Positions 901 to 15,700 of a stretch of DNA of 15,700 nucleotides are shown here, piece after piece. This DNA comes from Acidithiobacillus sulfuriphilus. GTDB lineage: Bacteria; Pseudomonadota; Gammaproteobacteria; Acidithiobacillales; Acidithiobacillaceae. The position numbers and the translations under genes were made by a program. Position 1 is the stretch's first letter. Each line of letters begins with the position of its first letter. Under the pieces are notes generated by a model. That model was not told the origin of the DNA and searched no databases. It was given only the letters and a program-made list of their open reading frames with translations. The stretch lies in contig NZ_RIZI01000124.1 in assembly GCF_003721225.1 (NCBI RefSeq), positions 1 to 15,700 on the forward strand, read 5' to 3'.

Positions 901-920
901 CAATGTTCTCTGCTGCAACT

Positions 921-3446
921 TCACAAAGAAGTGCCAAGTAAATTTTCGATTGAGCCACAGTCCAATTTCGCTTGTTGAATTTCAGCTTTCAACTGATCAC
1001 GAGCCACACCGAAATCCTTACCAACAAATTGCGTGCGTAGCTTCTTGAGCTCAGCAGCAGCGCTTTGCCCGTATTTCAAAATTTCTGCGGTTGAAATGAA
1101 ATTAAGCCCCTTGATGTGCGGTTTAGCCGACTCATCAACTTCATTACCTGCGGCGACTATTAGCGCCTGCATTGGAACTTCACTCAGTTCCGGGCGTTCG
1201 GCTTGTACCCAAGCAGGATGCCCTTTCGCCTGTAACACATACCTTTTCGAAAGCTGCGTTCCCGCCTTTGCCTCGAATGTGTAGTACCGATCATGAAAAA
1301 CCCATACAACATCTGGTGCGCCATCCGCTGTGGAGCGAATCACCTCAGCACCTAGACACTGCCCAAGTCGCTCCATACCAATGTGAAACTTGGTGTAATC
1401 GTTTGTCTGTGACAAGCCCGTCATCATCTCTTCCAATTTCTTCTTGAACACAGGCCCTTGCCATCCCCAACTTGCGAGTTGGTTCCAAATGGATTCTGCT
1501 TGCACATCCAGAGAGGTGGCATTGTCGGATTTTGCTGCACCCTTGCTACGCAGCCGAAGCAGGCTGTCCAGGAACCCCGAGTTGATCCCGATCGCCTTTG
1601 CTCTCTTCAGGCAATCAATCTCCCCCTCAGTTTCTCCTGCTGCACGCGCCGCAATAGATGCAAGAAACAGCCACCACGCGCGATAGCCTGCAAGCTCGGG
1701 CTTATTGATATCGTCAGCTGTTCGGCGAGCTATTTGATACGCACCAGTGTAGTCATCACTCCACATTGATCGAAGGTAAAGAACTTCAGCCTTACCGCTA
1801 TCTTCGTCCCCAAGCTCATCGCTAATTTGGTTAGGAATATCCAGCTCCGCGATACTTTCATTGGCATTCTTTCGATACTCTTCATCGGTAAGCAATCCGA
1901 CGATCATTCCCGTGAGCGCGTCAGATTCCTCTCGGGCAACCTCTCCCTGTTCCATGCCCCATGAAAGCTCTCGCTGTATCTCGCCGGGAAGAGTCTTTGA
2001 AAAAGCTGGCGGCGTAATGCTGTCAACTAACGACTGCCCGAGAAGAATGATCACAGCGAAGTCGGTTGCGTCTCGCGTGCAACGCCCCATCCCTTGAATC
2101 AACCTCGTTCGCTCACGGCGACGTAGCAAAGGCCCTAGTTTCCAGTGTTCTCGGAGATGGCGTTCCAAGGCCCCAATCGCCCCTGGGCTCTCGGCCAGAA
2201 CAAGTAGCCGGCAGTCGTCACCAGGAAGATCAACACCGTCGTAACGACCGGCCAGGCACAGTACTGCACTTTCTTTTGTAGTAAATGGCTCGAGACTATT
2301 CTCGATGTCCCAAGCACCTAGTTTGGCAGGGCTGGGGTTCATACCAGCCGAAAGCGAATCAAAAGTGCGGTTCGCAATTGGGAATGACGGCGCAAGAATG
2401 AGCGCGCGATGCGTACTCATTCCATTCCAAATTGAGGAAACTACTTGTGGGCACTCCTCCTCTTCGAAATAGAGACTCGGCATAAAGATGTATCGCCGAC
2501 CCCACTGTGCATGTTTTACGCGTATTGTCTCGATGCCCGTAACTCCATAGCCCCGGAGCAAATCACCCTCCCCTCCCAAGGTCGCAGACATGTAGATGCG
2601 CTGTTTCGTTTCACTAAATGGAGCATGAGTATGTGTAGGCGGCGCGATCGGTCGTATGACAATCTCGCGCACTGATACGAAAAATAGGCATGCGATGAGG
2701 TTGTTTCGGATGACGGTCCACGGAAAGTGGATACTTGGTTCTTTCGCTTCATCAAGCACCGCTGTGATGTTTGTAAGAACGTCTGCACGGGCGTGAATAT
2801 CCGCCAACTCTACCGCTACATACTCTGCTTCATCAGTAACCACGCGATATTGCGACTCGGACAGTGAAGGGCGCAGTGCGGCCAATACTTCTTGGTAGAC
2901 GTCTTGGTGGTCCTCGGCATCGATCCTCACTGTCCACATCGAGGCCACAGAGTGTTCGCCGCCGTGAGCATCGTCGAATACCAAAACATTTGAAGCCTGA
3001 ACTACTGGGTTTACGTTGAACAGATTGGAAAATGTGGTTACGCCAATCGCGCGCCCCATCGTATATCGACCCACTTCACCTGCGTCACGCGTTTCTTTTG
3101 TTCCTATTAGATTTGCACAATCGATTCCGAGACTTTCTGCTTCACGCAGCACTTGCTTCGCCAACTGATTTGTAAGAGTGAGGTAAGCGACTCGCTCACC
3201 TGTTTGTCGTCTACGCCATTCAGCGATGAGGAGCCCTACCGTTGTCTTTCCGGTGCCTGTCGGCAATTCGCATGCGATGTCGGTATTATCCTGCAATTTG
3301 ATGTAATCGCGCAGTGCATCTGTTTGTGGACCGCGCAGGTAGCCGTGCGATTTAACGCGATTAGGGAGTTTGGCGAACAACTCTTCTGGGGTTTCATACG
3401 ATTGTGCGGCTTTTGGTTTGCGAAATTCTGGTCTCTTCTTTTCCAT
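921..3446 (-). CDS. Rad3/XPD-like superfamily 2 helicase fused to a PD-(D/E)XK nuclease
   Basis: The protein has 841 residues. Helicase motifs appear in order: a Walker A PTGTGKTT (62-69), a Walker B FDDAH (157-161) in DEAH position, motif III MSATL (286-290), motif V GVDLPGD (414-420), and motif VI QGMGRCTRD (451-459). The GVDLPG form of motif V is typical of the Rad3/XPD/DinG branch. No four-cysteine iron-sulphur cluster is obvious. After a helical middle (~500-690) comes a nuclease-like core: P711-D712, then the strand YYTFEAKAG with E725 and K727, then a QAKGHPAW segment. It follows hsdS by three bases, and its stop overlaps a possible GTG start of the hsdM remnant, so it lies in the same operon. 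Its codons are visibly AT-richer than hsdR or rhuM, which suggests separate acquisition. It is probably a defence-related DNA translocase/nuclease. I do not recognise a named family. Confidence 0.85.
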   Translation of the reverse strand: MEKKRPEFRKPKAAQSYETPEELFAKLPNRVKSHGYLRGPQTDALRDYIKLQDNTDIACELPTGTGKTTVGLLIAEWRRRQTGERVAYLTLTNQLAKQVLREAESLGIDCANLIGTKETRDAGEVGRYTMGRAIGVTTFSNLFNVNPVVQASNVLVFDDAHGGEHSVASMWTVRIDAEDHQDVYQEVLAALRPSLSESQYRVVTDEAEYVAVELADIHARADVLTNITAVLDEAKEPSIHFPWTVIRNNLIACLFFVSVREIVIRPIAPPTHTHAPFSETKQRIYMSATLGGEGDLLRGYGVTGIETIRVKHAQWGRRYIFMPSLYFEEEECPQVVSSIWNGMSTHRALILAPSFPIANRTFDSLSAGMNPSPAKLGAWDIENSLEPFTTKESAVLCLAGRYDGVDLPGDDCRLLVLAESPGAIGALERHLREHWKLGPLLRRRERTRLIQGMGRCTRDATDFAVIILLGQSLVDSITPPAFSKTLPGEIQRELSWGMEQGEVAREESDALTGMIVGLLTDEEYRKNANESIAELDIPNQISDELGDEDSGKAEVLYLRSMWSDDYTGAYQIARRTADDINKPELAGYRAWWLFLASIAARAAGETEGEIDCLKRAKAIGINSGFLDSLLRLRSKGAAKSDNATSLDVQAESIWNQLASWGWQGPVFKKKLEEMMTGLSQTNDYTKFHIGMERLGQCLGAEVIRSTADGAPDVVWVFHDRYYTFEAKAGTQLSKRYVLQAKGHPAWVQAERPELSEVPMQALIVAAGNEVDESAKPHIKGLNFISTAEILKYGQSAAAELKKLRTQFVGKDFGVARDQLKAEIQQAKLDCGSIENLLGTSL

Positions 3447-3449
3447 GAT

Positions 3450-4964
3450 TTACCTTTTTCCAACACGTGCCGTGATCGCTTCGCGCGGAATCGCTTGATT
3501 TACGAGGTACCCGGAAAACGCCTTGGCAAGAATGACTTGCCGAAGTCGCTCAGAGCGCTGGAGGTTGACGTCTGCCTGAGACTCGGTGCCACCTAGAATC
3601 GAGAGGCGGCGGTCGACCTCAGCGACGATGCGGTGTTGTTCGGCAAGTGGGGGAACCGGGATTCTGAATGCCTTTACGTCACCAACGTTGATATGCGGCA
3701 CTGTGCTACCGAGTGCCTGAGCTAGATATTGGGACCTAACGATTTCCGAGTGCAGGGTGTACCGGAGCAGACTGCCCAAGAAATGTATGGATGGCCTGAG
3801 AAGCATTACACGCTGCCCTAAACAAGGTCTCATTCGCTCAGGCACCAAGATCGCTGTCCCGATAGTCCCTTCCCGTGCGAAAACGATATCGCCAGGTTTG
3901 GGTGCGAGTCTTGCAATGCGCTCTTGGTAGGTGACTTCATCAACATACCTTGCCCGTTGGATTACTAAACCTTCTTTTGTCATCCACGTGGTGTCGATGC
4001 ACGGATAACCGTCGGGCATGAAACGCGCAGTGCTGTGCGGGCAATCGACGATCCACTCACAGACCAAATCGACAGTGGCCCACACCCACCCCTCCGGCAA
4101 TTCGGGCAGGCTGGTGGTATCGGGTGGGTTGGGTTCTTTGTATTTGCCCTTGCCTTGCCACTGGCTGCGGCGGGTTTCGAGGATGCGTTGCAGGAGTTGG
4201 GCGCCGGTTTCGTAGCTGCGGCCTTCGCGGTGGGCGCGTTCGGCTTCGGTTTCGACGAGGCGGCCTTCGACGGCGGCTTTGAGGACGGCGGCTTTGTAGC
4301 GTTTGAGGTTGGCCTTGACGCGCTTGAGGTTGGCGACGGTTTCGTCGAGGCGGGAGAATTGTTTTTCGATTTCCGCGACGATGCGTTTTTGTTGGCCGAG
4401 GGGCGCAACGGGGATAGTGCTTTGCTTCAAGTAGGTCGTGGACACACGTTTCTGTCCCACCGCCCCGGTCATATATCTCTCTGCTTCTCCACGAAATATC
4501 TGGCTCGACACATAGTAGTAAAGGTACTTGGCATCTATTCCCAGTTTGGGCCGGAGCACATGAAATTCAGTGGACCCAAAGCCGTAGCCGTTCACCAGCT
4601 TGGGGACGACGGCCATCTTTCCGTTTTCCATGCAGGGCGTTATCTTCGCGAAAAGGACATCCCCCTCCAGGAATACGGTGAAGCCCTTTTTCACTTCTCC
4701 GGCCAAACGAGTCTCTTTGACTTGGATAGAGCCATCTCCAGCACCAACGGCTGGCATGGGAACGAAGGAAACAGGTAGATCATCCGGAACCACGGATTTA
4801 TCAACTCGGGGATTAACGTCAGCCACTTCCTCAATGGGGTAAACTGGCCAACCTTCCAGCCATTGCATAAGGGACTCTACGCTCTCATGTCGCGTGACAC
4901 GACCAGCCTCCACATCCTCAAGAGAGGCTTCAAGCCGCGCAGGGGCATTGCCATCTTGATACAT
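3450..4964 (-). CDS. hsdS: Type I restriction specificity subunit HsdS with antitoxin-like N-terminal extension
   Basis: The protein has 504 residues and two target-recognition domains. The first spans about 38-190. The first conserved helical spacer follows (~190-290: QQKRIVAEIEKQFSRLDETV, then KRYKAAVLKAAVEGRLVE). The second domain begins at PELPEGWVWATV (~288) and runs to ~445, ending in the second spacer (PLAEQHRIVAEVDRRLS... ILAKAFSGYLV). HsdS gives the M2S/R complex its sequence specificity. The two recognition domains are AT-richer than the spacers, as is usual for exchangeable domains. Start ATG 4964 follows a purine-rich GGGGAGAGCGGCGGA. The first ~37 residues (ASLEDVEAGRVTRHE) are not normal HsdS sequence and resemble the C-terminal tail of small antitoxins; HsdS homology begins near EGWPVYPIEEVADVNPR. 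It is apparently intact, but its HsdM partner here is truncated. Confidence 0.9.
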   Translation of the reverse strand: MYQDGNAPARLEASLEDVEAGRVTRHESVESLMQWLEGWPVYPIEEVADVNPRVDKSVVPDDLPVSFVPMPAVGAGDGSIQVKETRLAGEVKKGFTVFLEGDVLFAKITPCMENGKMAVVPKLVNGYGFGSTEFHVLRPKLGIDAKYLYYYVSSQIFRGEAERYMTGAVGQKRVSTTYLKQSTIPVAPLGQQKRIVAEIEKQFSRLDETVANLKRVKANLKRYKAAVLKAAVEGRLVETEAERAHREGRSYETGAQLLQRILETRRSQWQGKGKYKEPNPPDTTSLPELPEGWVWATVDLVCEWIVDCPHSTARFMPDGYPCIDTTWMTKEGLVIQRARYVDEVTYQERIARLAPKPGDIVFAREGTIGTAILVPERMRPCLGQRVMLLRPSIHFLGSLLRYTLHSEIVRSQYLAQALGSTVPHINVGDVKAFRIPVPPLAEQHRIVAEVDRRLSILGGTESQADVNLQRSERLRQVILAKAFSGYLVNQAIPREAITARVGKR

Positions 4965-4987
4965 TCCGCCGCTCTCCCCTTTCGTTA

Positions 4988-5050
4988 TTATTTCCGACCC
5001 ACTAAAGGCAGGCGTTGAACTTCCTGAATAATCTTTTCCGCCGCGGTCAT
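4988..5050 (-). pseudogene. 20-codon remnant, probably the start of an antitoxin (DUF2281-like)
   Basis: ATG 5050 follows a GAGGGGAGGGG ribosome site and encodes MTAAEKIIQEVQRLPLVGRK before a stop. The first 15 residues resemble the opening of small DUF2281-type antitoxin proteins, which normally run to about 70 residues. The hsdS start, with its antitoxin-like extension, lies only 23 bases further on, so both pieces may descend from one antitoxin gene that suffered an internal deletion. The similarity is from memory and short. Confidence 0.4.
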
Positions 5051-5063
5051 AGCCCCTCCCCTC

Positions 5064-5225
5064 TCACGCAACCAAGGCACTGTTGAGGGCTTCCAATATC
5101 GCACCCAACTGATCGCTAAACAACTGATGCACCCGCCCCAACCCACCCTCCTGCGCGAAGGGGCCGTATTCGAATTCATCCGGTTCGATGCCGAGGTTGG
5201 CGGCGATGGCAATGCGCGCCGTCAT
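5064..5225 (-). pseudogene. Orphan copy of the hsdR 3' end (tail C)
   Basis: This 53-codon frame reads MTARIAIAANLGIEPDEFEY and then PFAQEGGLGRVHQLF... LNSALVA. It closely matches the last ~50 residues of the full HsdR at 6956-7114 (IAANLGIDPDDFEYAPF... LNEALVA). Its ATG shares one base with the stop of rhuM-fic (TAATG), and it ends at TGA 5064. The copy is diverged rather than identical, so it came from a different hsdR allele or is old. It could be an untranslated relic or a small protein made by translational coupling. Confidence 0.85.
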
Positions 5226-6226
5226 TAGCCACCCTCCTGGAGCAGATTCAGGATCAAGCGGACCAGCAGTTCTTTCTGCGCGGGGTCGCTTTCGGCGACC
5301 AGTAAGGCCGTCGCCACCAGGGCGTTGTCGGCGAAACGCGGGGTGCCGTCGAACCGGGTCAACAGGCCATTGCGATCGAGGTAAAGCAGAAACAGGAAGC
5401 TGCCGATACGCTTGTTGCCGTCGGAAAAAGGATGGTCCTTGATGCTGAAATACAGCAGGTGCGCGGCGCGTGTTTCGGCGCTGGGGTAGAGCGCCGCGCC
5501 GCCGAAGCTTTGTTCAATCGAACCCAGGATGCCATCCAGCGCGTTGCCCCGCTCCTGGCCGAACAGTGCCGTGGCCTCGCCACGGGCCAGTAGCGCCTGT
5601 TTGAGTCCCGCAATGGCATGGCGGCATTCTTCCAGGCGCAGAGCGGCCAGCGGCGGCGTGGGGTGGGCCGGCGATTCCGGCAGGCGGTCTTCGTCATACT
5701 GCAAGAGCAAACGCCAGGAGCAGGCGTAGCTGGTGACCACGTCCAGCACCGCCCGGCCTTGCTCATTGACCATTGCCTGCGCGGATAGCGTCCGCGCCAG
5801 CAAACGCACGGCCTGTTCCATTTCGGTGAGGCCCTTTTCGCGCAGGCGGCGCTCGTTGAGGGTGTAGCCCTGGATCAGATGGTCCCGAAGGGTGCGGGTG
5901 GCCCAGATGCGGAACTGGGTGCCGCGCCGGGATTTGACCCGGTACCCGACGGAGATGATGACGTCCAGGCTAAAGAATCTGACGGGCTTATCTGAACTTG
6001 CAATGTGCAAATTTTGCACATTGCTTTCTTCATCCAACTCCCCCTCCCTGAACACATTGGCGATGTGCTTGGTAATGACAGACCGCTCCCGGCCAAACAG
6101 CTCGGCCATCTGTGCCTGGGTCAGCCAAGCGGTCTCCCGTTCCAGGCGTACATCCAGACGAATCTGGCCATCGGGCGCCTCGAATAGCGCGACCTCACCG
6201 CCGGGCTGGGGGTTGTTCTGGCTCAT
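5225..6226 (-). CDS. RhuM-family protein with C-terminal Fic/Doc domain
   Basis: The protein has 333 residues. The N-terminal half is the RhuM-type module often found beside type I restriction genes: TAWLTQAQMAELFGRERSVI (32-51) looks like a DNA-binding helix-turn-helix, followed by SLDVIISVGYRVKSRRGTQF (86-105). The C-terminal half is a Fic/Doc fold with HPFSDGNKR at 265-273. The GNKR ending is the Doc variant, whose members phosphorylate EF-Tu, rather than the GNGR of AMP-transferases. I chose ATG 6226 because it overlaps the stop of the preceding hsdR tail as ATGA; an in-frame ATG at 6247 would lie inside that tail. The length is normal and no residues of the motif are lost. The role in the locus, toxin or RM accessory, is not known to me. 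Confidence 0.88.
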   Translation of the reverse strand: MSQNNPQPGGEVALFEAPDGQIRLDVRLERETAWLTQAQMAELFGRERSVITKHIANVFREGELDEESNVQNLHIASSDKPVRFFSLDVIISVGYRVKSRRGTQFRIWATRTLRDHLIQGYTLNERRLREKGLTEMEQAVRLLARTLSAQAMVNEQGRAVLDVVTSYACSWRLLLQYDEDRLPESPAHPTPPLAALRLEECRHAIAGLKQALLARGEATALFGQERGNALDGILGSIEQSFGGAALYPSAETRAAHLLYFSIKDHPFSDGNKRIGSFLFLLYLDRNGLLTRFDGTPRFADNALVATALLVAESDPAQKELLVRLILNLLQEGG

Positions 6227-6381
6227 GTCGCCAAGGTCCCGTTCCATTCTTCGATGATCGCACTGAACTCACCACCGAAGCGCTGATGCACCCATCCCAG
6301 CCCACCCTCCCGTGTAAAGGGCGCGTACTCGAAGTCGTCCGGTTCGATGCCGAGCTTGGCGGCGATGTGGTCGCGGATCAT
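6223..6381 (-). pseudogene. Orphan copy of the hsdR 3' end (tail B)
   Basis: This frame of 52 codons plus stop reads MIRDHIAAKLGIEPDDFEYA, then PFTREGGLGWVHQRF, and ends ...GTLAT. The first ~26 bases equal those of the genuine hsdR end at 7114-6956, and most residues agree until the last ~15. Its ATG overlaps the stop of the relE toxin (ATGA), and its TGA overlaps the rhuM ATG (ATGA). It is therefore a precise hsdR tail placed between two cargo genes. Changes such as GLGRV to GLGWV suggest weak or no selection. Translation as a short peptide is possible because of the coupling. Confidence 0.85.
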
Positions 6382-6665
6382 TTCACCCGCCTCCCCGCCT
6401 TCCGATACACCGCGCTATCCTCCCGCTTGCCCACCGCCACCACGACGATCACCACCCGCTCGTCAAAAACCTGATACACCAGCCGGTAACCGGCGGCGCG
6501 TAGCTTGATCTTGTAGCAGTCGGGCAAGCCGGACAAACGCGCGGATTCGACGTGGGGGTTGTCCAGCCGCTCCTGCAGTTTGGCCTTGAATTGTTCGCGC
6601 AACGGGCGGTCGAGCTTTTGCCACTCCTTCCAGGCGCTTTCCCGGAATTCAAGGCTATAGCTCAT
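6378..6665 (-). CDS. relE: RelE/StbE-family mRNA interferase toxin
   Basis: The protein has 95 residues and is very like Escherichia coli RelE in length and layout: MSYSLEFRESAWKEWQKLD, then LPDCYKIKLRAAGYRLVYQV and VGKREDSAVYRKA. The catalytic residues described for RelE fall at the same numbers here: K52, K54, R61, R81 and Y87. An active ribosome-dependent RNase is therefore expected. The ATG at 6665 lies inside the end of the antitoxin gene (11-base overlap), which is typical toxin-antitoxin coupling; longer starts upstream would run back through the antitoxin. Its stop overlaps the ATG of hsdR tail B. Confidence 0.92.
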   Translation of the reverse strand: MSYSLEFRESAWKEWQKLDRPLREQFKAKLQERLDNPHVESARLSGLPDCYKIKLRAAGYRLVYQVFDERVVIVVVAVGKREDSAVYRKAGRRVK

Positions 6666-6900
6666 CAAGCACGACTTTGACGGTGGGCTCGTGGGCGCGT
6701 TGCGCGACAACTTTAGCCAGATCCATGTCGTCCAGCTTTTCCATCAGGGCCTCGAAGGCGGCGGCGGGCACCAAATAGGCGGCGGGCTTGTTGTGGTTGA
6801 GCACGGCGACGGGAAAGCCATCCGCTTGCGCGATGACGGCGCTAGGATTTTTCTTGAGTTCACTGATGCTGACCGAGGCGTTGGTGTAGAGCAGTTCCAT
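6655..6900 (-). CDS. stbD: Phd/YefM (StbD)-type antitoxin
   Basis: The protein has 81 residues from ATG 6900. The N-terminal Phd/YefM DNA-binding fold is recognisable from SISELKKNPSAVIAQADGFP (11-30) and VAVLNHNKPAAYLVPAAAFE (31-50). The acidic C-terminal part (EKLDDMDLAKVV... VVLDEL) would wrap the toxin. I chose the start by its GAGGAG six bases upstream. In-frame ATGs at 6921 (GGAG six bases upstream) and 6933 are alternatives that would add 7 or 11 residues. It should neutralise the RelE encoded immediately after it and autorepress the pair. It begins 55 bases after the hsdR stop. I saw no convincing promoter or operator palindrome in that gap. Confidence 0.9.
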   Translation of the reverse strand: MELLYTNASVSISELKKNPSAVIAQADGFPVAVLNHNKPAAYLVPAAAFEALMEKLDDMDLAKVVAQRAHEPTVKVVLDEL

Positions 6901-6955
6901 CGCGAGCTCCTCATGAGCCATAATTGTCTCCATATTCTAGTCAAAATTGTGAATG

Positions 6956-9718
6956 TTACGCCACCAGTGCTTCGTTCAACCGGTCAAGAAGGGGCTGGAG
7001 TGCCTCGCCGAAGAGCTGATACACCCGTCCCAACCCACCCTCCTGCGCGAAGGGCGCGTACTCGAAGTCGTCGGGATCGATGCCGAGGTTGGCGGCGATG
7101 TGGTCGCGGATCATTTCCAGCCATCTGATCTGTTCGGCGGTGAATGGTTTTTCGCGGCGAGGCGCCGCTCCTACGAGCCATGCCCTGAAGTTGGTGTTGA
7201 CCCGCTCGGGAAAAGGCACGAGTTCGTTGTCCTGATGGATGGCGAAGCGGACCAGCGACACCAGGTCGGTGAGGATGCGGCGGCCGCTGGCGCCTTTGAC
7301 CTTGCTCGCTTCCAGCGCGGCGTAGGCCTGCCAGAGTTGGGATTCGTTCCACAGGTAGGGCGGCTTTTCGATGGCGTCGGCGAGCTCTTTCACCGCCTCG
7401 AAGGTGAGACGCTGTTTGTAGGGCTTGCTGTAGAGAATTTGCAGGGCGGTGATTTCGTCCTTGTGGTCGGCGATGAATCGCTCGAAGGATTGGACCAGGC
7501 CACGGGCGCGGTCGAGGGCGGCCTGGCTGAAGCCGGCTTCCAGAACCAAGTCCTGGCTGACGTGGTCGATGGTGAGTTCGTTTTTGGCTTTGATATCGAG
7601 GATGAGTTGGCGCAGGGCGGGGTCGCAGAGCGGTTTGACAGCCTGAGTGCGATCCTGTGCCGCGGCCCCCGCTCCTGCACCGTGATGGCTATCGGGGTCG
7701 AGGGATGCGACTAGCTGGTGGGCGAGGTCTTTGAGGCCGAGGCCGCCGCTGGCGGCGCGAATCCTTGCATCGTCTTCGGCGCTGATGCGGTGTTCCATTC
7801 TGGCCAGGCGGCCGGCGATGCTGGTGATGACGTCGTCTTCGGTGTTGCCGAAAGCGACGGCTTGCAGCAGGCGCTCGAAGCTGACGCTGGGCTTTTTCTC
7901 CATGGGGCGGGCGTCGGTTTTGTCCTGCTCGCACACGCCGACGGCGTCGATGATGACGAAATGGTCCTTGGCCGTGGCGTCGGGGGTGACGGCCTTGAGG
8001 TCGTCGGGCGCAATCACGCGCACGCCGCGGCCTTTCATCTGCTCGAAGAAGCCGCGTGATTTGACGGCGCGCATGAAGAAGACGATTTCCACCGGCTTGA
8101 TGTCGGTGCCGGTGGCGATCATGTCCACGGTGACGGCGACTCTAGGATGGTAGCTGTTGCGGAAGGCTTTGATGAGGTTCTGCGGGGTGTCGCCGGTGGT
8201 GCGGTAGGTGATCTTCTGGGCGAATTCATTGCCCTTGCCGAATTCCTCGCGCAGGATTTCGACGATGTTTTCGGCGTGGTTGTCGTCCTTGGCGAAGATG
8301 AGGGTCTTGGGCACTTCGCTGCGGCCGGGGAAGATTTCGCTGAACAGCTTGTCGCGGAAGGTGCGCACGATGGTGCGGATCTGGTCGGGGGTGACGACGT
8401 CGCGGTCGAGCTGGTTGGGGTCGTAGGCGAAGTCGTCGTCGAGTTCTTCCCAGCGGGTCTTGCGGGTGTCGCGCTCCTGCTTTTCCACGTAGTAGCCGGC
8501 TTCGACCTTGGAGCCGGCCTCGGTGATGGCGGTCTTGATGCGGTAGACATCGTAGTTGACGTTGACGCCGTCGGCCACGGCCATCTCGTGGCTGTATTCC
8601 ATCACCAGGTTCTGGTGGAAGAAGCCGAAGGTCTGCTTGCCCGGCGTGGCGGTGAGGCCGACGAGGGTGGCGTCGAAGTATTCCAGCACCTGCGCCCACA
8701 GGTTGTAGATAGAGCGGTGGGCCTCGTCGGTGACGATGATGTCGAAGGTCTCGATGGGGATGCTGGGGTTGTATTCGATGGGCTCGGGTTCCTTGAACAG
8801 CTTGCCGAGCTGGTCGACGGATTCTTCTTCCAGGTCGGCCGGCAGGTCGCGGCCCTTGAGCATGGAGTACAGGCGCTGGATGGTGCAGATGCAAACGCGG
8901 GCGGTGGTGTCGATCTGGTTACCCTGCAGGCGCTGGACGATGTACTCCTCGCTGAACTTGAAATTGTTGTAGGGCGAGGCGTACTGCTGGAATTCCTTGA
9001 GGGTCTGGTCGGCGAGGTTGCCGCGATCGACCAGGAACAGGATGCGCCGCGCCCTGGCGAACTTGATCAGGCGGTAGATGAAGGAAATCGAGGTGAAGGT
9101 CTTGCCCGAGCCGGTGGCCATCTGGATCAGGGCGCGCGGGCGGTTTTCCTTGAGGGATTTTTCGAGGTTGCGGATGGCCGTGATCTGCGCGGGCCAGAGG
9201 CCTTCTTCCTTCAGCGGCGGCATGGCTTGCAGGCGGGCGAGGAAGGTGGTGCCCCGCTCGATATAGCTCCCAGGTGCCTCCTGCACATGGTTCTGCGTGG
9301 TGCCGAGCCATTCCGCCAGAAGCTCCGGGCGGTGGAAGGCGAAGACCGGTCGCGCGCGGGGCTCCGGGTCCAGGCCGTTGGTGAAGCGGGTCTCGACGCC
9401 GGTGGACTGGTAGGCGAATGGCAACGGGTTGTGCCAGGCGGGCATGCCGGGCGGCAGCCCTTCCGTATATTTCTTCGCCTGAACCTCGACGCCCGAAAGG
9501 GTCACGCCCTGCCTCTTGGCCTCGATGACACCGGCGGCCTTGCCGTCCACATAGAGGAGATAGTCGGCAAAGCCGTGGCCGGGTTTCAGCGGAAATTCGC
9601 GGACCGCCACTCCGCGGGCGGCATGGATGTTGACCGCCGCGGCGTCGCAGACCTGCCAGCCGGCCCCTTGAAGGAGGCGGTCGATGGTCTGGCGGGCGTC
9701 CTGCTCGGGGTTGCTCAC
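6956..9718 (-). CDS. hsdR: Type I restriction endonuclease subunit HsdR
   Basis: The protein is about 920 residues, normal for the EcoEI-like branch. The N-terminal nuclease core shows D52 in GFADYLLY and the EAK pair E66/K68 (GVIEAKRQG). Helicase motifs follow: Walker A ATGSGKT (201-207), DEAH (331-334), LTATP (355-359), then MIATGTDI and QMKGRGVRV for the second RecA lobe. The helical C-terminal region ends in HIAANLGIDPDDFEYAPF... LNEALVA. This subunit cuts DNA after ATP-driven translocation when bound to methyltransferase-specificity complexes. I prefer GTG 9718 (VSNPEQDAR) because GGAG lies 5 bases upstream and family members begin like this; a GTG at 9757 would add 13 atypical residues. 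No frameshift is visible. I found no clear promoter in the 127 bases between it and the tRNA. Confidence 0.94.
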   Translation of the reverse strand: MSNPEQDARQTIDRLLQGAGWQVCDAAAVNIHAARGVAVREFPLKPGHGFADYLLYVDGKAAGVIEAKRQGVTLSGVEVQAKKYTEGLPPGMPAWHNPLPFAYQSTGVETRFTNGLDPEPRARPVFAFHRPELLAEWLGTTQNHVQEAPGSYIERGTTFLARLQAMPPLKEEGLWPAQITAIRNLEKSLKENRPRALIQMATGSGKTFTSISFIYRLIKFARARRILFLVDRGNLADQTLKEFQQYASPYNNFKFSEEYIVQRLQGNQIDTTARVCICTIQRLYSMLKGRDLPADLEEESVDQLGKLFKEPEPIEYNPSIPIETFDIIVTDEAHRSIYNLWAQVLEYFDATLVGLTATPGKQTFGFFHQNLVMEYSHEMAVADGVNVNYDVYRIKTAITEAGSKVEAGYYVEKQERDTRKTRWEELDDDFAYDPNQLDRDVVTPDQIRTIVRTFRDKLFSEIFPGRSEVPKTLIFAKDDNHAENIVEILREEFGKGNEFAQKITYRTTGDTPQNLIKAFRNSYHPRVAVTVDMIATGTDIKPVEIVFFMRAVKSRGFFEQMKGRGVRVIAPDDLKAVTPDATAKDHFVIIDAVGVCEQDKTDARPMEKKPSVSFERLLQAVAFGNTEDDVITSIAGRLARMEHRISAEDDARIRAASGGLGLKDLAHQLVASLDPDSHHGAGAGAAAQDRTQAVKPLCDPALRQLILDIKAKNELTIDHVSQDLVLEAGFSQAALDRARGLVQSFERFIADHKDEITALQILYSKPYKQRLTFEAVKELADAIEKPPYLWNESQLWQAYAALEASKVKGASGRRILTDLVSLVRFAIHQDNELVPFPERVNTNFRAWLVGAAPRREKPFTAEQIRWLEMIRDHIAANLGIDPDDFEYAPFAQEGGLGRVYQLFGEALQPLLDRLNEALVA

Positions 9719-9802
9719 GGCGGCTCCGGGGCGGTTGTTTTTTCCGTTATGAACCACAGATTAGGACAAAAACCCCCATACCGAAAGCCTCTGTACAGGT
9801 CC

Positions 9803-10070: not shown

Positions 10071-10586
10071 ATGTCAGGAAAAATGCTTCAAGGAGGGCGC
10101 TGGGCGCTCATTGCCCTGGGTTGCGCAGCAGTAGCCATGCCCCTGAGTGGTTGCGTGGCACTCCTCGGTGCCGGTGCCGGCGGCGGCGCCGTAGCCTATG
10201 TGGAAAACGGCGGCATCGCCAATTATTACGCCTATTATCCCGTTTCCCTGCAACAGGCCAGCGCCGCATCCCAGGCCGCCTTGCAGCAAATGGGCATTGC
10301 CTATAACGGTAATATCCGCAAGACCTCCAATGTAGAATTGATGGAAGGAACCACCCGCGACGGCGAGACCGTGAAAATCACCTTCACCTCCATGAGCACC
10401 CAGGTCACCAAGGTGAATGTCCGGGTGGGCACCTTCGGCGACAAGGCCATCTCCCTGCAGTTCCAGAAGACCCTCTCCCAGCACCTGGGCATGGCCGCCA
10501 GCGCCGTGGCTCCGGCGAGCACCGCCCCGGGCGAGGCTGCCGCACCCCCGGCGCAAGCGCAACAGCAGACCATCCCCCTCCAATGA
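10071..10586 (+). CDS. Small lipoprotein, DUF3568-like
   Basis: The protein has 171 residues. The signal sequence is of lipoprotein type: a charged start, a hydrophobic stretch WALIALGCAAVAMPL (11-25), then lipobox LSGC with the acylated cysteine at C28. The mature protein begins with a small-residue stretch (VALLGAGAGGGAVAYVENG), then a compact domain up to ~140 (YYPVSLQQASAASQAALQQM... VRVGTFGDKAISLQFQKTL). It ends in an Ala/Pro/Gln-rich low-complexity tail. The domain resembles DUF3568, whose function is unknown to me. It has a strong ribosome site and probably its own transcript, since the tRNA terminator precedes it and hairpins follow it. Confidence 0.8.
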   Translation: MSGKMLQGGRWALIALGCAAVAMPLSGCVALLGAGAGGGAVAYVENGGIANYYAYYPVSLQQASAASQAALQQMGIAYNGNIRKTSNVELMEGTTRDGETVKITFTSMSTQVTKVNVRVGTFGDKAISLQFQKTLSQHLGMAASAVAPASTAPGEAAAPPAQAQQQTIPLQ

Positions 10587-10593
10587 CCCTCAG

Positions 10594-10628
10594 TGGAGCG
10601 CGCCGCTTCCCGGAAGTGCCGCGCTCCA
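10594..10628 (+). terminator. Long hairpin after the lipoprotein gene
   Basis: TGGAGCGCG (10594-10602) pairs exactly with CGCGCTCCA (10620-10628). An inner stem, 10604-10608 with 10614-10618, extends it past a C-C mismatch. It starts eight bases after the stop codon. No T-run follows, so it is a likely 3'-end stabiliser or a weak terminator. Confidence 0.55.
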
Positions 10629-10679
10629 TTCCGTAGGGGGCGACAGCCCTCCCGGGCGCCGTCCTGTCCGTATTCTGGC

Positions 10680-10703
10680 GGAATCCCCCCAAGGGGGGTT
10701 TCC
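10680..10703. repeat. C6-AA-G6 palindrome
   Basis: Six C (10685-10690), AA, then six G (10693-10698) form a stem, extended by GGAA/TTCC past a T-T mismatch. A T-run of only three follows the G tract. It may add to transcription stop in this gap; its function is unknown. Confidence 0.5.
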
Positions 10704-10717
10704 ATGCTTCCCGCGAA

Positions 10718-10736
10718 GCCCGCCAAGGGCGTTTTT
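10718..10736 (+). terminator. Possible intrinsic terminator before the TonB locus
   Basis: A short stem GCCC/GGGC (10718-10721 with 10727-10730) with a five-base loop is followed by G and five T (10732-10736). The stem is short, so this is tentative. With the two hairpins before it, it would insulate the lipoprotein unit from the regulator promoter. Confidence 0.45.
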
Positions 10737-10779
10737 CCACGCCTTACCCAACCCGAACCGCGCCATCTATCTGCCTATT

Positions 10780-10834
10780 TGTCATGACATTGTCATAAAA
10801 ACTTCATCATAGTGTCACATTGCCACGCTACCCT
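10780..10834 (+). promoter_or_regulatory. Pho-box-like promoter: four 11-bp direct repeats and -10
   Basis: TGTCAT (10780), TGTCAT (10791), CTTCAT (10802) and TGTCAC (10813) start exactly 11 bases apart, with A/T-rich linkers. A weak -10, TACCCT, lies at 10829-10834, sixteen bases after the start of the last unit. This is the layout of PhoB-activated promoters, where tandem TGTCAT units replace the -35. It sits upstream of the small ORF and the OmpR-type regulator. The same arrangement recurs before exbB. Confidence 0.75.
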
Positions 10835-10860
10835 TGTCGGTGCCGCAACCAAGCGCATAC

Positions 10861-10867
10861 AAGGAGG
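10861..10867 (+). promoter_or_regulatory. Strong ribosome binding site of the 39-codon ORF
   Basis: AAGGAGG, a full Shine-Dalgarno match, lies five bases before ATG 10873. It is the best ribosome site in the window and supports translation of the small ORF rather than of a longer regulator N-terminus from GTG 10812. Confidence 0.8.
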
Positions 10868-10872
10868 CCGCC

Positions 10873-10992
10873 ATGGGCATTACAACGAGCAACGCAGCGC
10901 AATTTCCTATCGTCCATTCCCGCCACAAGGCGCCCGCGAATTTTTTCCATCTGTGCGCTGCATGCGCCGCGGGTATGGGCTGCAAGGATTGA
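10873..10992 (+). CDS. 39-residue Cys/His-rich small protein or leader peptide
   Basis: The ATG follows a perfect AAGGAGG. The peptide opens MGITTSNAAQFPIVHSRHK and closes NFFHLCAACAAGMGCKD. H15, H18, H26 and C28, C31 (CxxC), C37 could bind a metal. There is no signal peptide or membrane helix. It lies 39 bases downstream of the -10 of the Pho-box-like promoter, and its stop is two bases before the regulator ATG 10995, so the two are translationally linked. It may be a small metal-binding partner of the regulator, or a leader whose translation gates the regulator. I recognise no family. Confidence 0.65.
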   Translation: MGITTSNAAQFPIVHSRHKAPANFFHLCAACAAGMGCKD

Positions 10993-10994
10993 CC

Positions 10995-11834
10995 ATGCTC
11001 TACACCCTCATGGGCGGCGTAGCCCATCACACCCTCCACTTGACCGAAGCCTTCTGGCTGACCGCCGCCGCGCGCTGGGAGGAGACCGATCCCTTGGAGC
11101 GATCCCGCATTCTCCTGCTGTCCGAGAAAGGCGACGCCGCTCCGGCCATGGTCTCCCGTCTCCGACGCTTCGGGGCACTGCCCCGGAGCGTCTCCGCAAG
11201 GGATGCGGCTACCCTGCTGGTACAGCGCTGGCATCCCCAACTCCTCGTCATCTCTCCCTGGTCCAACGCCATGGGCGCTTGGTGCAAGGGCCTGTGCTCC
11301 CGCGCCGAGGGCATGAATCTGCCCATCCTTGCCATCGGCCCCGGGGGGAATGAGGACATGGCCATGATGGCCCTCGATGGCGGTGCCGATGCCTATCTGA
11401 CGCAACCCGTCAGCGACACTTTGCTCCTGGCCCAGATCAGCGCCCTGCTCAAACGCAACAGCCACTGGGAACAGGTGGTAGCGGGACAAATGGAGATCCT
11501 GCAGGTGAACCCCCGCACCCATCGGGTCTGGGTGCGGGGCCAGGAGATCCGCCTCAGCCGACGCCTCTTTCGCCTCCTCCATTACCTCGCCCTGCATCCC
11601 GATCAGACCTTCTCGGCCCGGCACATCGCCTCGCTGCTCAGCGACGGGAGCAAGTTCATCCAGGAAAACTCCGTGGCAGCCCAGATCCATCGCTTGCGCA
11701 AGGCCCTGGATACCCGTCATGCCGGTGAATGGCTGGAAACCGCCCACGGCTTCGGTTATCGCCTGACCCTGCCCCCGGCGGAGAAGCCGGCCAATCCTGC
11801 CATCCCCCCGCCACAGGATGGTTGTTTGTCATAA
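10995..11834 (+). CDS. OmpR/PhoB-type transcription regulator with degenerate receiver domain
   Basis: The protein has 279 residues from ATG 10995 (AAGG seven bases upstream). Residues ~37-155 have a receiver-like pattern (RILLLSEKGDAAPAM... HPQLLVISPWS... LPILAIGPGG... GADAYLTQPVSDTLL). The phosphoacceptor Asp is replaced by S87, the conserved Lys by Q137, the Thr/Ser switch by G115, and the acid pair is reduced to S43-E44. It should not be phosphorylated normally. Residues ~167-260 are a typical winged helix (VNPRTHRVWV... LSRRLFRLLHYLALHPDQTF... NSVAAQIHRLRKALDT... GFGYRLTLP). No histidine kinase gene is adjacent. It sits between two promoters with 11-bp repeats, the spacing OmpR-family dimers bind, so autoregulation and control of exbB are likely. 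The tail is Pro-rich. Starting at GTG 10812 is unlikely because that base lies within the repeat region. Confidence 0.85.
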   Translation: MLYTLMGGVAHHTLHLTEAFWLTAAARWEETDPLERSRILLLSEKGDAAPAMVSRLRRFGALPRSVSARDAATLLVQRWHPQLLVISPWSNAMGAWCKGLCSRAEGMNLPILAIGPGGNEDMAMMALDGGADAYLTQPVSDTLLLAQISALLKRNSHWEQVVAGQMEILQVNPRTHRVWVRGQEIRLSRRLFRLLHYLALHPDQTFSARHIASLLSDGSKFIQENSVAAQIHRLRKALDTRHAGEWLETAHGFGYRLTLPPAEKPANPAIPPPQDGCLS

Positions 11835-11870
11835 AAGCTTCATAAAAGTGTCACATCGCTTTGTTATCTT
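11827..11870 (+). promoter_or_regulatory. Pho-box-like promoter of the exbB operon
   Basis: TGTCAT (11827), CTTCAT (11838) and TGTCAC (11849) are spaced 11 bases apart with AAAAG linkers. A -10, TATCTT, lies at 11865-11870, sixteen bases after the start of the last unit, as in the site upstream of the regulator. The first unit overlaps the stop codon of the regulator gene. Transcription would begin about 20 bases before the exbB ATG. Confidence 0.78.
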
Positions 11871-11897
11871 CCCGCCTGACTTTTTTGAGGGACTACC

Positions 11898-12581
11898 ATG
11901 GACACCCAATATCTTATCCACCTCGCCAACTATTCCGACGGTATTTTATATGTGCTGGCCCTCCTCCTGCTGGTGGCCCTGGCGGTGATGGTGGATCGCT
12001 TCTGGTATTTGCGCCGTACCATCCTGCGCGGGCATATCTTCGTGCAGGAAATGGGTCGGCATGGCCGGCTGGATCGGGAAACCCTGGAAAAACTGGCCGA
12101 GCAGGCAGGGGATCTTCCCGAAGCGGCCTTGCTGCGCAGCGCCGCCAATCATCATGGGCAGGTCAAGGAGGAAGCGCTGGCCAACCGCCTGGAAGAAAGC
12201 ATCCTGGTGACGGCCCCGCAACTGGATCGCCGGCTGTGGATCCTGGACACCATCGTCACCCTCGCGCCCCTGCTGGGCCTCTTTGGCACCATCATCGGCA
12301 TGTTTCACGCCTTTTCCGTCCTCGCCCAACCGGGCCACGCCCCCACCGCCGTCACCGGCGGCGTGGCCGATGCGCTGGTGGCCACGGCCTCCGGCCTCTT
12401 CATCGCCATGCTGGGCCTGGTCGCCTTCAACGCCTTCAACAACCAGGTGCGCATGATCCTGCTGCAGATGGACTCCCTCAAGACCATGCTCCTCAACCGC
12501 ATGGACGGACACCCGGTGCTGGGCGCCGCAGACATCCGGGACACTGCCCCGGCGGCGGTGGTCATGGCGAGGGCCGGCTGA
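11898..12581 (+). CDS. exbB: ExbB/TolQ-family proton channel subunit
   Basis: The inner-membrane protein has 227 residues. Membrane segments lie near 14-34 (ILYVLALLLLVALAVMV), 115-140 (TLAPLLGLFGTIIGMFHAF) and 155-182 (VADALVATASGLFIAMLGLV). The last two carry the signature MotA/TolQ/ExbB sequences that line the proton path with ExbD. A large cytoplasmic loop separates segments 1 and 2. With ExbD and TonB it converts the proton gradient into force on outer-membrane receptors. GAGGG lies six bases before ATG 11898. The gene begins the operon driven by the Pho-box-like promoter, and its stop shares a base with the exbD start (TGATG). Confidence 0.94.
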   Translation: MDTQYLIHLANYSDGILYVLALLLLVALAVMVDRFWYLRRTILRGHIFVQEMGRHGRLDRETLEKLAEQAGDLPEAALLRSAANHHGQVKEEALANRLEESILVTAPQLDRRLWILDTIVTLAPLLGLFGTIIGMFHAFSVLAQPGHAPTAVTGGVADALVATASGLFIAMLGLVAFNAFNNQVRMILLQMDSLKTMLLNRMDGHPVLGAADIRDTAPAAVVMARAG

Positions 12582-12982
12582 TGACCAGACGCTATTTCGA
12601 GGCCCGCAAGGGCCGGGTGGAGATCATCCCCATGATCGACATCATGCTCTTCCTGCTGGTGTTCTTCATCATGATCACCCTGCAGATGATCCCCGACAAA
12701 GGACTCGACCTGCAGCTCCCGGCTTCCAGCCAGGCCAAGAGCCTGCCCCGGCCCCACTACACCCTGAATATCGAGAAGGACGGCACCGTCACAGTGAAGG
12801 GCAAGCACTACACCCTGGCCGGTCTCCAACAGATGTTGGTTGGTGACAAAGACCCTGCCAAGACCCAGATCACCATCGCCGCCGATAGGACTGTCCCCTT
12901 TCAGGACTTCATTCACGTCATGGATACCTGCCAGAAGGCGGGAGTCAGTGACATCGGGATCGCCGCCAAAGCGTCTGGCTGA
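12581..12982 (+). CDS. exbD: ExbD/TolR-family protein
   Basis: The protein has 133 residues: a short cytoplasmic N-terminus, one membrane helix (IIPMIDIMLFLLVFFIMITL, ~15-34) with the essential protonatable Asp at D20, then a periplasmic domain (YTLNIEKDGTVTVKGKHYTL... TQITIAADRTVPFQDFIHVMD). This is the normal size and layout. The ATG overlaps the exbB stop by one base, so the two subunits are co-translated. It ends 74 bases before the receptor gene. Confidence 0.95.
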   Translation: MTRRYFEARKGRVEIIPMIDIMLFLLVFFIMITLQMIPDKGLDLQLPASSQAKSLPRPHYTLNIEKDGTVTVKGKHYTLAGLQQMLVGDKDPAKTQITIAADRTVPFQDFIHVMDTCQKAGVSDIGIAAKASG

Positions 12983-13056: not shown

Positions 13057-15414
13057 ATGTATAAAAAAATGCCGCTACGCCCCTTGATTCTGGCGCTCGC
13101 CGGTTCCGGGATGATCCTGCTCAGCCCCGCCGCCTTTGCAGATGGGGTCACGGCAGCCACCGACAGCAGCGCTCACAGTTCCGTCAACGTCGGTCAGGTG
13201 AATGCCGCTGCCAATTCCGTGTCCTATCTCGGCAGTCAGGAGGCCCAGTCCCTCACGCAGAAGAGCAATTTCCATTCCGGTCAATCCATCAAGGTGCTCG
13301 GCAAGCATCAAATGGCCGCTGCCGGGCCGGTGGGTGGCAGCGCGCAAGCGCTTTCCTATGCGCCGGGCGTGAGCGTAGCCAGCTACGGTTACACGGGGGC
13401 CACCAAAAATACCATCAGTATCAACGGTATCAAGCAGGGTTGGGTATCTCCATCGGGCGGTCAGGTCGACGACGGCAGCATCGCGGTCACCTTTGACGGC
13501 GTGCCCATGGTGGATCCCTCCACCGGGCTGTGGGAAAGCCCCCAGGTGCCGCAAACCGGAATTCTACAAGGCATCGGCATCACTTACGGACCAGGGAACC
13601 CGTTGAATCGCTGGTACAACAACATCGGCGGGCAGATTGATTTCGTCCCTCTGCAGCCAACGGCGAAGCCAGGCGCATCCATCAAAATGTCTTACGGTAG
13701 CTACAACACCAAGAATATCGTCTTCAATATCCGCACCGGCAGCGTGGACGGCTGGTCCACCATCCTCGCCGGGGGAGCGGGATCGGGCGACAGTTACCGA
13801 CAGAGCCCCGACGGTTTTGCCAATCCGAGTTATGACTACGCCTGGTTTTTGAAAACCAGAAAGACCTTCAGCAATGGCGATTTCTCCCTCGGCGCCTATC
13901 TGGCCAAAGGCTCAGGCTACCGCCCCGTGCCCATTCCCCTGAATCCCATTGCCGGGGTGACGATGGACGGCACCCCCAACAGTCCCCTTTACAGTCAGGC
14001 CAGCTCGGGGTTTTATTCCTCCCTGCCCTACGGCGTCTGGAACAAGGAGGACAGCAACAGCACCTGGCTCGTCTACAGCAAGCTCAACGTCGCCCTGGAC
14101 CGGATGGTAGGCGCGCATAACATGGTCTGGTACCGCTACGGTCAGCGCCTGCACGTCCACTACAACAACTATGGCCTGGGCAATCCCGGCAATCTGTATG
14201 AGTTCAACAATCCTTATGACAGCGTCTATGGGGATAAATTGTGGTTGTCGGTGAAGCTCCCCTACAACGACGTGGATCTCGGCGGCTTTTTCCTGAAGAG
14301 CCGTTACAATTCCCGCAACGTGTTTTACAACAGCAACGCCCCCTACTATGGTTCTCTCCAGGTACCCAACGCCCATTATCGCAGCGACTATTGGGACCAG
14401 ACGGATCTGGCCGCCTTCGTACAGGACCGGATCAGTCCCATGGACAACCTCCATATCACCCCGGGCGTGCGCTTCATCAATTACCAAACCAATTACTACC
14501 CGGCCGCGAGCACCGACTTTGCCGCAGCCTATGCCCTTTATCCAAACAACAATCAGGGCGTGCTACCGGCCGCGAACAACAGCTTTACCAAGGTGGAGCC
14601 GTCGGTGGACTTCAATTGGCAGCCGCTGAAATGGCTGGCCGTCTTCGCCAGTTACGCGCAAGCCTACAAGGAACCGAACGTGGGCGGCGGCGGCGGTCTT
14701 TATCAGAGTACGCCAGCGATCTACAACCTGGAAAAAAGCGCGGACTACAATGCCGGGATCAAGGTGCACTTCAACGAGGGCCCTTATCTGCGCAACTTCC
14801 TGCTCACCGCGAGTTTCTACCACCTGCATTATACCAACCAATACATCCCCATTTCCGATGCCAACGGCAACTACCTGGGCGACGGCAATGGCGACTCCAT
14901 CTATCAGGGAGTGAATATCGCCTTTGCGGATGATCCCCTCTACAATCTGCACGTATTTGCCAACCTCAATTTCGAGAAGGCGACCTTCGCTCATTATGTC
15001 AACGCCGGCGTCAGCTACAATGGCTTGCCGGTGTCCAACGTGCCGGACAGCACCTTCAACATCGGCGCTGCCTACAATTACTTCGTCTCCGGCATCATGC
15101 TGCAACCGCGCCTGTGGTATCAGTATGTCGGCGCGCAAAGTCTGTTCAGCAACCTCACCGGAGCGCCGACCAACCAGCAGATGCCGGCATACGGCACCCT
15201 CAACCTGGGTCTGGACAGCACGGTGCCGACCCATGGCGCGCCTTTGCTCAAGGATGTCAAGCTGGGCGTGGACATCCTCAATCTCACCGACAAGCACTAT
15301 AACGCGTTCGAATACATCACGAGCGGCGGCTTGCTGGGAGGAGGTGCGGGACAGGTCCTGGCCTTGCCAGGCGCGCCCCTGACGGTATATGGCAGCATTA
15401 CCGCCAATTTCTAA
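13057..15414 (+). CDS. TonB-dependent outer-membrane receptor
   Basis: The protein has 785 residues from ATG 13057 (AGGAG seven bases upstream). A signal peptide ends near AAFA-DG (residues 28-29). A likely TonB-contact segment lies at 41-50 (SSVNVGQVNA). The plug domain runs from ~77 (SIKVLGKHQMAAAGPVGGSA) through NTISINGIKQGW and GIGITYGPGNPLNRWYNNIGGQ to ~220. A 22-strand type barrel follows, rich in Tyr, Asn and Gly, with a typical C-terminal strand ending in Phe (VYGSITANF). No N-terminal signalling (STN) domain is present. The ligand cannot be read from sequence: Pho-box-like control hints at a phosphate-related substrate, but iron chelates or other metals remain possible. It is in one direction with exbB, exbD and tonB. 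Confidence 0.93.
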   Translation: MYKKMPLRPLILALAGSGMILLSPAAFADGVTAATDSSAHSSVNVGQVNAAANSVSYLGSQEAQSLTQKSNFHSGQSIKVLGKHQMAAAGPVGGSAQALSYAPGVSVASYGYTGATKNTISINGIKQGWVSPSGGQVDDGSIAVTFDGVPMVDPSTGLWESPQVPQTGILQGIGITYGPGNPLNRWYNNIGGQIDFVPLQPTAKPGASIKMSYGSYNTKNIVFNIRTGSVDGWSTILAGGAGSGDSYRQSPDGFANPSYDYAWFLKTRKTFSNGDFSLGAYLAKGSGYRPVPIPLNPIAGVTMDGTPNSPLYSQASSGFYSSLPYGVWNKEDSNSTWLVYSKLNVALDRMVGAHNMVWYRYGQRLHVHYNNYGLGNPGNLYEFNNPYDSVYGDKLWLSVKLPYNDVDLGGFFLKSRYNSRNVFYNSNAPYYGSLQVPNAHYRSDYWDQTDLAAFVQDRISPMDNLHITPGVRFINYQTNYYPAASTDFAAAYALYPNNNQGVLPAANNSFTKVEPSVDFNWQPLKWLAVFASYAQAYKEPNVGGGGGLYQSTPAIYNLEKSADYNAGIKVHFNEGPYLRNFLLTASFYHLHYTNQYIPISDANGNYLGDGNGDSIYQGVNIAFADDPLYNLHVFANLNFEKATFAHYVNAGVSYNGLPVSNVPDSTFNIGAAYNYFVSGIMLQPRLWYQYVGAQSLFSNLTGAPTNQQMPAYGTLNLGLDSTVPTHGAPLLKDVKLGVDILNLTDKHYNAFEYITSGGLLGGGAGQVLALPGAPLTVYGSITANF

Positions 15415-15489: not shown

Positions 15490-15700
15490 TTGAACGCGAT
15501 ATTGATGAGCGGCTCCACGCCGATGGGTGGCAACCCCCAGCGCGGACATTTTGGCCGGGCACTGATAGCGGGGGCCGCGCTGGAGGCCCTGCTGATCGGC
15601 GGCATCCTGTGGGTCGGATCGCATACCCCCCCGCCCAAACCCATGGTGCCGGAAAAGAAGATCATCGCCATCCACATGGTGCAGCCGGCCCCGCCCAAAC
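15490..15700 (+). CDS. tonB: Energy transducer TonB, N-terminal part (runs off the window)
   Basis: Seventy codons are visible. TTG 15490 is preceded by GGAGG (15478-15482) at seven bases and is the likely start; ATG 15505 is too far from that site. A short cytoplasmic part leads to one membrane helix (RALIAGAALEALLIGGILWV, 23-42), with a glutamate inside it (E32). The start of the proline-rich periplasmic spanner follows (HTPPPKPMVPEKK, QPAPPK). This is the usual TonB layout, and the neighbours exbB, exbD and the receptor support it. The C-terminal receptor-binding domain lies beyond the window. Confidence 0.85.
   Translation, partial: MNAILMSGSTPMGGNPQRGHFGRALIAGAALEALLIGGILWVGSHTPPPKPMVPEKKIIAIHMVQPAPPK

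Follow-up and report, generated by a model that had tools for sequence, protein, structure and literature searches.

The Pho box promoters of Escherichia coli (NC_000913) are the closest described counterparts of the elements reported here. At pstS, four units (TGTCAT, TGTCAT, TTACAT and TGTCAC) are followed after ten bases by the hexamer TATTTT, while phoA has two units and then, again after ten bases, TATAGT. The consensus in print, as given in the portion of the article available, is CTGTCAT-A(AT)A(TA)-CTGT(CA)A(CT) (PMC3465305), and T194, V197, R201 and R219 are named as base-contacting residues of PhoB in the accessible text of PMC3264566. Among regulators, ChxR, HP1043 and CosR combine a receiver fold devoid of phosphorylation residues with a winged helix; the first two are described, in the excerpts at hand, as phosphorylation-independent. 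A recent review, in the part available, describes the switching of pseudo-receiver regulators as a mystery (PMC12632262).

For the acidithiobacilli, Osorio et al. 2008 described a FecA3-ExbBD-TonB-phosphatase cluster that follows PhoB-like regulators, and suggested a circuit linking iron and phosphate (PMC2631029, available in part). The locus presented below shares with it the kind of genes and a predicted link to phosphate; in that study, however, the regulator was taken as PhoB, and the accessible passages contain neither 'pho boxes' nor 'receiver', the two loci being likened here by kind of cluster. Two pst clusters and PhoR/PhoB were listed by Valdes et al. 2008 (PMC2621215, in the part available). 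PhoB of Synechocystis controls iron genes according to the accessible text of PMC11126600, and in this tie of PhoB to iron acquisition it resembles the present case, whereas its box core is TTAA and TonB and ExbB do not occur in that text. A survey of the open-licence literature, with subscription journals mostly outside it, returned no report of a Pho box, a Pho regulon or a PhoB pseudo-receiver for Acidithiobacillus.

Two Pho arrays in the TonB locus

The window, which is the whole 15,700-nucleotide stretch of Acidithiobacillus sulfuriphilus DNA analysed here, carries the following features:

10071 to 10586 (start approximate), plus strand, DUF3568 lipoprotein-like gene (Pfam DUF3568)
10780 to 10823, plus strand, Pho array 1, four 11-bp units, conserved in relatives
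10829 to 10834, plus strand, -10-like hexamer TACCCT, at a 16-base offset from the first base of unit 4 of array 1
10873 to 10992, plus strand, remnant of a phosphate:H+ symporter-like MFS gene, about its first 36 codons (BLASTP and DNA alignment)
10995 to 11834, plus strand, OmpR/PhoB-type regulator with a pseudo-receiver domain (Pfam Trans_reg_C only; residues; AlphaFold2)
11827 to 11859, plus strand, Pho array 2, three 11-bp units
11865 to 11870, plus strand, -10-like hexamer TATCTT, at a 16-base offset from the first base of the last unit of array 2
11898 to 12581, plus strand, exbB (PF01618)
12581 to 12982, plus strand, exbD (PF02472)
13057 to 15414, plus strand, TonB-dependent receptor (PF00593, PF07715)
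15505 to 15700 (start approximate), plus strand, beginning of a tonB-like gene that runs off the contig (N terminus Pro-rich and TonB-like by eye)

The region from 254 to 9757, on the minus strand, is defence-like and includes genes for type I restriction and specificity; next to a Fic-like frame lies a short piece of a methyltransferase (by eye), a RelBE-like pair was likewise named by eye, and PADLOC proposed PDC-S23 and PDC-S28 candidates. A protein similar by eye to the DUF3568 product lies just upstream of the array at another locus (L163).

The two arrays stand before two genes. Array 1 comprises TGTCAT at 10780, TGTCAT at 10791, CTTCAT at 10802 and TGTCAC at 10813, and array 2 TGTCAT at 11827, CTTCAT at 11838 and TGTCAC at 11849; re-reading the window returned the same positions, 11-base spacing and TGTCAT-CTTCAT-TGTCAC order as a preliminary description of this DNA. 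That description had also set both -10 elements sixteen bases from the last unit, which holds for TACCCT at 10829 and TATCTT at 11865 when the distance is measured from the unit's start, both arrays having TAnnnT at exactly this offset. Since the stretch at 11816 preceding array 2, GGATGGTTGTT, contains no recognisable unit, array 2 is taken to have three. The stop codon of the regulator falls inside the first of them.

In common with E. coli pstS, the arrays have the 11-bp spacing, the TGTCA core and a deviant unit before the last, and, as at both pstS and phoA, the hexamer of the last unit is followed by ten bases and then the -10 hexamer. Tandem 11-bp units with a TGTCA core, an array in place of the -35 element at a fixed distance from the -10, and presence before phosphate genes of the same genome are all found here. 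The label Pho-box-like given previously is supported by a geometry equal to that of E. coli pstS, by conservation and by the phosphate genes described below. What differs from E. coli is the genes served: a TonB/ExbBD/receptor operon follows one array of the window and a pseudo-receiver regulator the other.

Chance was ruled out as the origin of the arrays by shuffles, a genome scan and reversed controls. In dinucleotide-preserving shuffles of the window, a best three-unit score of 15 (maximum 18) was reached in 1 of 500, as compared to scores of 16, 15 and 15 in the window itself, and two sites scoring at least 15 occurred in 0 of 500 of a second set. The exact three-unit pattern was present at two places in the 2.8-Mb genome, both in the window (reversed control, 0). 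Three TGTCAT units with up to three mismatches gave 10 matches across the whole genome versus 1 in the reversed control; two of the 10, on contigs C72 and C187, look like chance by eye.

Conservation of the arrays and the genes behind them

With the regulator as query, matches were obtained in 30 of 31 genomes of the order, and near relatives of the regulator (86%) are named Acidithiobacillus sp. Reading the best locus of each matching genome assigned 28 to the pseudo-receiver family and two, from a sister family of genomes, to canonical PhoB. Of the 29 genomes in the window's own family, 28 accordingly yielded a member of the pseudo-receiver family; the exception is G020 (71% complete), which holds one array and no detected family member. 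An array with a correctly placed TAnnnT adjoins the regulator, within 700 bases upstream or 450 downstream, in 28/28 best pseudo-receiver loci, so that the repeats are conserved at orthologous loci, a point on which the preliminary description had staked its proposal. Scores reached at least 19 of 24 in 24 of these 28 and 17-18 in the others (L052, L053, L060 and L061); the two sister-family PhoB loci attained only 14 and 12 of 24. Across whole genomes, the array pattern with its -10 and up to two mismatches matched 150 times, overlapping matches counted, in 29/29 family genomes, and 0 times in the two sister-family genomes and in the reversed control of all 31.

The patterns used for the scans of several genomes (up to two or three mismatches) have NTTCAT built in, and the unit statistics were therefore redone on 39 distinct arrays, at loci fetched by protein and picked on unit score alone, without the -10. 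Bearing in mind that many of the 39 come from related species, TAnnnT lies at offset 16 in 35, the second base of the third unit is T in 32 with the first base free, and the second base of units 1, 2 and 4 is G in 36-38. Behind the regulator of L052-L057, an inverted repeat resembling GTCAC-CTCA-GTGAC, with variants in some, replaces part of the array and precedes, in several, another gene of about 200-270 codons.

The preliminary description had suggested scanning the genome for the three-unit pattern; looser forms of that scan place matches before pst and phosphoesterase genes. In the window genome, G003, G017 and G021 together, up to three mismatches gave 33 matches, corresponding to 31 distinct arrays (control, 0), and loci for 29 of these were examined for the gene downstream. 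Five arrays precede a pseudo-receiver regulator, five exbB, three a TonB-dependent receptor, three a symporter-like MFS gene, three a porin (one phosphate-selective porin O and P, two OprD-like), two PstS, and one each a phosphoesterase and an ornithine acyltransferase-like gene. An ABC ATPase, a beta-propeller-like protein (below cut-off) and a Sel1 protein, one each, are without a clear phosphate role, and three of the 29 arrays had no assignable gene behind them, both of which speak against Pho promoters driven by PhoB. One of the two PstS was tested and exceeds its NCBIfam cut-off; for phosphate:H+ symporter (two of the three MFS tested), ornithine acyltransferase and acid phosphatase, each the best NCBIfam match of the protein concerned, the scores stay under the curated cut-offs.

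Within the window genome, arrays lead the phosphoesterase on contig C49 and the symporter-like MFS gene on C85, and one of the five array-led regulators, on C94, heads pstS-pstC-pstA (genes by eye). Moreover, exbB of G017 is followed in its operon by exbD, receptor, tonB, ribonuclease T2 and phosphoesterase, and exbB operons include a ribonuclease in G021 and a phosphoesterase in G003 and on C85 (some names by eye). TonB_C follows the receptor on C85 and in G017. A shorter, two-unit box with a -10 precedes pstS1 of the window genome, and each of the two sister-family genomes has one before a pstS. In 25 of 29 phoB loci such a box is located some 2 kb past the start of phoB, which in the window genome is behind phoR and before pstS1; it was not found there at L106, L107, L109 and L110. 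Allowing one mismatch, the two-unit pattern matched 26 times in six genomes (1 and 2 times in the sister family; control, 0).

Further observations in the same genome concern single contigs. The array at 3779-3822 of C107 precedes the gene resembling ornithine acyltransferase (OlsB); the use of membrane lipids free of phosphorus under starvation would be in accord with this. On C96 (L013), a single array accompanies a cluster at 7854-18094 that encodes two TonB receptors, a beta-propeller phosphoesterase and a protein like phospholipase C, and on C77 (L014) a weaker array at 8422 (14 of 18 over three units), behind that contig's receptor, precedes an OprD-like porin and an ABC transporter.

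With pstS, a phosphate-selective porin, symporter-like and phosphoesterase genes among those behind the arrays, the predicted role of the arrays in phosphate control is well supported. An iron-uptake operon under Fur, with the repeats of minor importance, represents a rival reading, as clusters of this kind were annotated as ferric transport by Osorio et al. 2008, who suggested that Fur and PhoB control them jointly (PMC2631029, in the text available), and the weak NCBIfam matches of the window receptor are heme and siderophore receptor models, far below cut-off. Nevertheless, the best Fur-like site in 10590-11900 agrees at 10 of 19 positions with the Fur consensus by simple count, on which basis Fur control of the exbB operon was rejected, and the operon of G017 adds the ribonuclease T2 and phosphoesterase genes; we regard this reading as very improbable. 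Because the arrays are Pho-box-like, adjoin orthologous regulators and precede phosphate genes, it is very probable that a single regulon of the phosphate response unites the regulator gene with the exbB operon. The preliminary description had left that regulon either to this response or to the locally encoded OmpR-type protein; the conserved arrays and phosphate genes speak for the former, and as to the binder the choice leans to PhoB over the local protein.

The pseudo-receiver regulator and the symporter remnant

Pfam detects Trans_reg_C in the regulator of the window and no receiver domain. The winged-helix domain matches PhoB in sequence and fold, and an AlphaFold2 model (mean pLDDT 76.6) retains the five-fold beta-alpha receiver fold. 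To this the model adds a low-confidence N-terminal helix (residues 4-26) which has no counterpart in the aligned PhoBs; this N-terminal extension, residues 1-30 (window 10995-11084), is conserved, and most members show an HxxH-like pattern in it.

Alignment of 43 family members with three canonical PhoBs, with the numbering placed by motif, revealed extensive changes at the phosphorylation residues. The beta-5 lysine (Lys105) is missing in 43/43, the beta-4 Thr83 column holds glycine in 42, serine in one and threonine in none, and the phosphoacceptor column (Asp53) retains aspartate in 11 of 43, with proline in the window regulator. At the second position of the beta-1 acid pair, 17/43 have Asp or Glu. 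The regulator thus departs from canonical PhoB in its phosphorylation residues (acid pair, Asp53, Thr83 and Lys105), and it scores 99.1 bits with NCBIfam TIGR02154 versus a cut-off of 296.2. By its sequence, it is a PhoB relative whose receiver has lost most phosphorylation residues, and the receiver fold without these residues, in part known from the model, together with Trans_reg_C, places it among the atypical OmpR/PhoB-type regulators. ChxR, HP1043 and CosR are alike in this respect, and DNA-bound CosR is the closest solved structure to the model (TM-score 0.45 over the query); the local regulator differs from the three by lineage, by the N-terminal extension and by the adjoining Pho boxes.

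In a tree of 26 proteins, the pseudo-receiver family forms one group (support 100/100) apart from PhoB and from six other response regulators of the window genome, and the six PhoB rows do not form one group. A plasmid search returned matches below 60% identity; those listed were response regulators, other OmpR proteins or unannotated. A scan of genome contigs gave a single match, of 46 residues.

The translation of 10873-10992 is identical at 21 of 37 positions to an MFS protein encoded on C85 of the same genome (BLASTP, E 9e-11), where the gene has an array of its own. An autonomous small protein was thereby ruled out, the frame matching the first 36 codons of the C85 gene. At the DNA level, the alignment to the symporter scores 105, as compared to shuffled maxima of 24-26, and the match runs from the array on. 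Both C85 and G017 show an array followed by symporter and regulator and then a further array followed by exbB; to judge from this order and the remnant, array 1 was originally the promoter of the symporter gene, the body of which is gone in the window.

Symporter remnants between array and regulator also occur in two other groups, L042/L044 and L054-L056. In L042/L044, 13 symporter codons are joined to a regulator without the N-terminal helix, the break falling at codon 13, while in the window and L054-L056 it falls at codon 37-38. This near-identical position would suit one loss as well as separate losses; that L053, close to L056 in the tree, still matches C-terminal symporter codons speaks against one inherited loss. 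L057 gave no symporter match above shuffles. Loss of the symporter with retention of its Pho promoter before the regulator, in two other genome groups, hints at selection for this wiring. The regulator start in L042, L043 and L044 appears fused to the symporter N terminus, as aligned for L042 and L044.

Candidate binders of the arrays

The window genome encodes a canonical PhoB on another contig. Absence of canonical PhoB fails as an argument for another binder, as this protein scores above the curated cut-off in 29 of 31 genomes, the window genome included; the misses are G020 (71% complete) and G012 (81% complete). The boxes keep the PhoB consensus, PhoB is present in these 29 genomes, and the local regulator lacks most phosphorylation residues and has altered DNA contacts; for these reasons the choice of a first candidate leans to canonical PhoB.

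We therefore favor, with a probability of roughly two in three, Pho promoters driven by phosphorylated PhoB, with the pseudo-receiver regulator as a second tier. Both arrays would be activator-dependent promoters of the E. coli pstS type, at which, under phosphate scarcity, phosphorylated PhoB dimers on the tandem 11-bp units would stand in for the -35 element and recruit RNA polymerase. Array 1 would drive the regulator and array 2 exbB-exbD-receptor-tonB. With a receiver that is presumably not phosphorylatable in the usual way, the regulator would be made only while PhoB is active and would act as a second-tier factor whose amount, rather than phosphorylation, carries the signal, feeding forward perhaps on the same arrays. 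PhoB binding, induction upon phosphate limitation and the targets of the regulator are what we infer here.

Alternatively, the local regulator rather than PhoB may be the main binder. It would then activate the TonB operon as well as the gene that encodes it, with no need of phosphorylation, as for other atypical OmpR-type regulators. Congruent with this, an array adjoins it in 28/28 best loci, such arrays are absent from the two genomes without it, and DNA-bound CosR is its best structural match. R201, R203 and T217 are invariant in 43/43 members, and the family may thus itself bind arrays. Conversely, among the PhoB base-contact columns, all kept in the 3/3 canonical PhoBs aligned, R201 is conserved in 43/43 and T194 is Ser/Thr in 39, yet V197 is replaced by Ala in 34 and R219 by His in 42, while the arrays keep the ordinary PhoB consensus. 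In addition, arrays of the window genome on C49, C77, C96 and C107 have no family member on their contig, and G020 has an array and no detected member. We consider this reading unlikely. Long arrays are nonetheless found only in the pseudo-receiver-bearing genome family (incomplete G020 excepted), the two sister-family genomes, a small sample, having PhoB only and no such arrays, which leaves the regulator a possible share in array control.

Such a share could take the form of mixed occupancy, with PhoB and the regulator sharing the arrays and the regulator, for instance, on the third unit, NTTCAT; the operon would then need phosphate starvation plus build-up of the regulator. The fixed deviation of that unit (T at the second base in 32/39) is in line with this. 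However, E. coli pstS likewise carries T at the second base of its third unit (TTACAT), and E. coli is not known to have such a pseudo-receiver regulator; joint occupancy appears rather doubtful.

Returning to PhoB-driven arrays with a second-tier regulator, a wider proposition may be entertained tentatively, namely that throughout this family of acidophiles a phosphorylation-blind, lineage-specific PhoB relative acts on PhoB's own boxes. Phosphorylated PhoB would start it, here from a captured symporter promoter, and its amount would then hold or shape how the TonB, Pst and phosphatase operons respond.

A pseudo-receiver family with a predicted control point, the Pho boxes, and with candidate targets renders the question of how such regulators are switched testable. 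Furthermore, bioleaching bacteria may acquire phosphorus by the TonB-driven uptake that the 2008 study annotated as iron transport, which is relevant to how phosphate and iron are used in ore heaps. Finally, the PhoB look-alike behind Pho boxes points to an extra layer in the possible response of mining bacteria to scarce phosphate.
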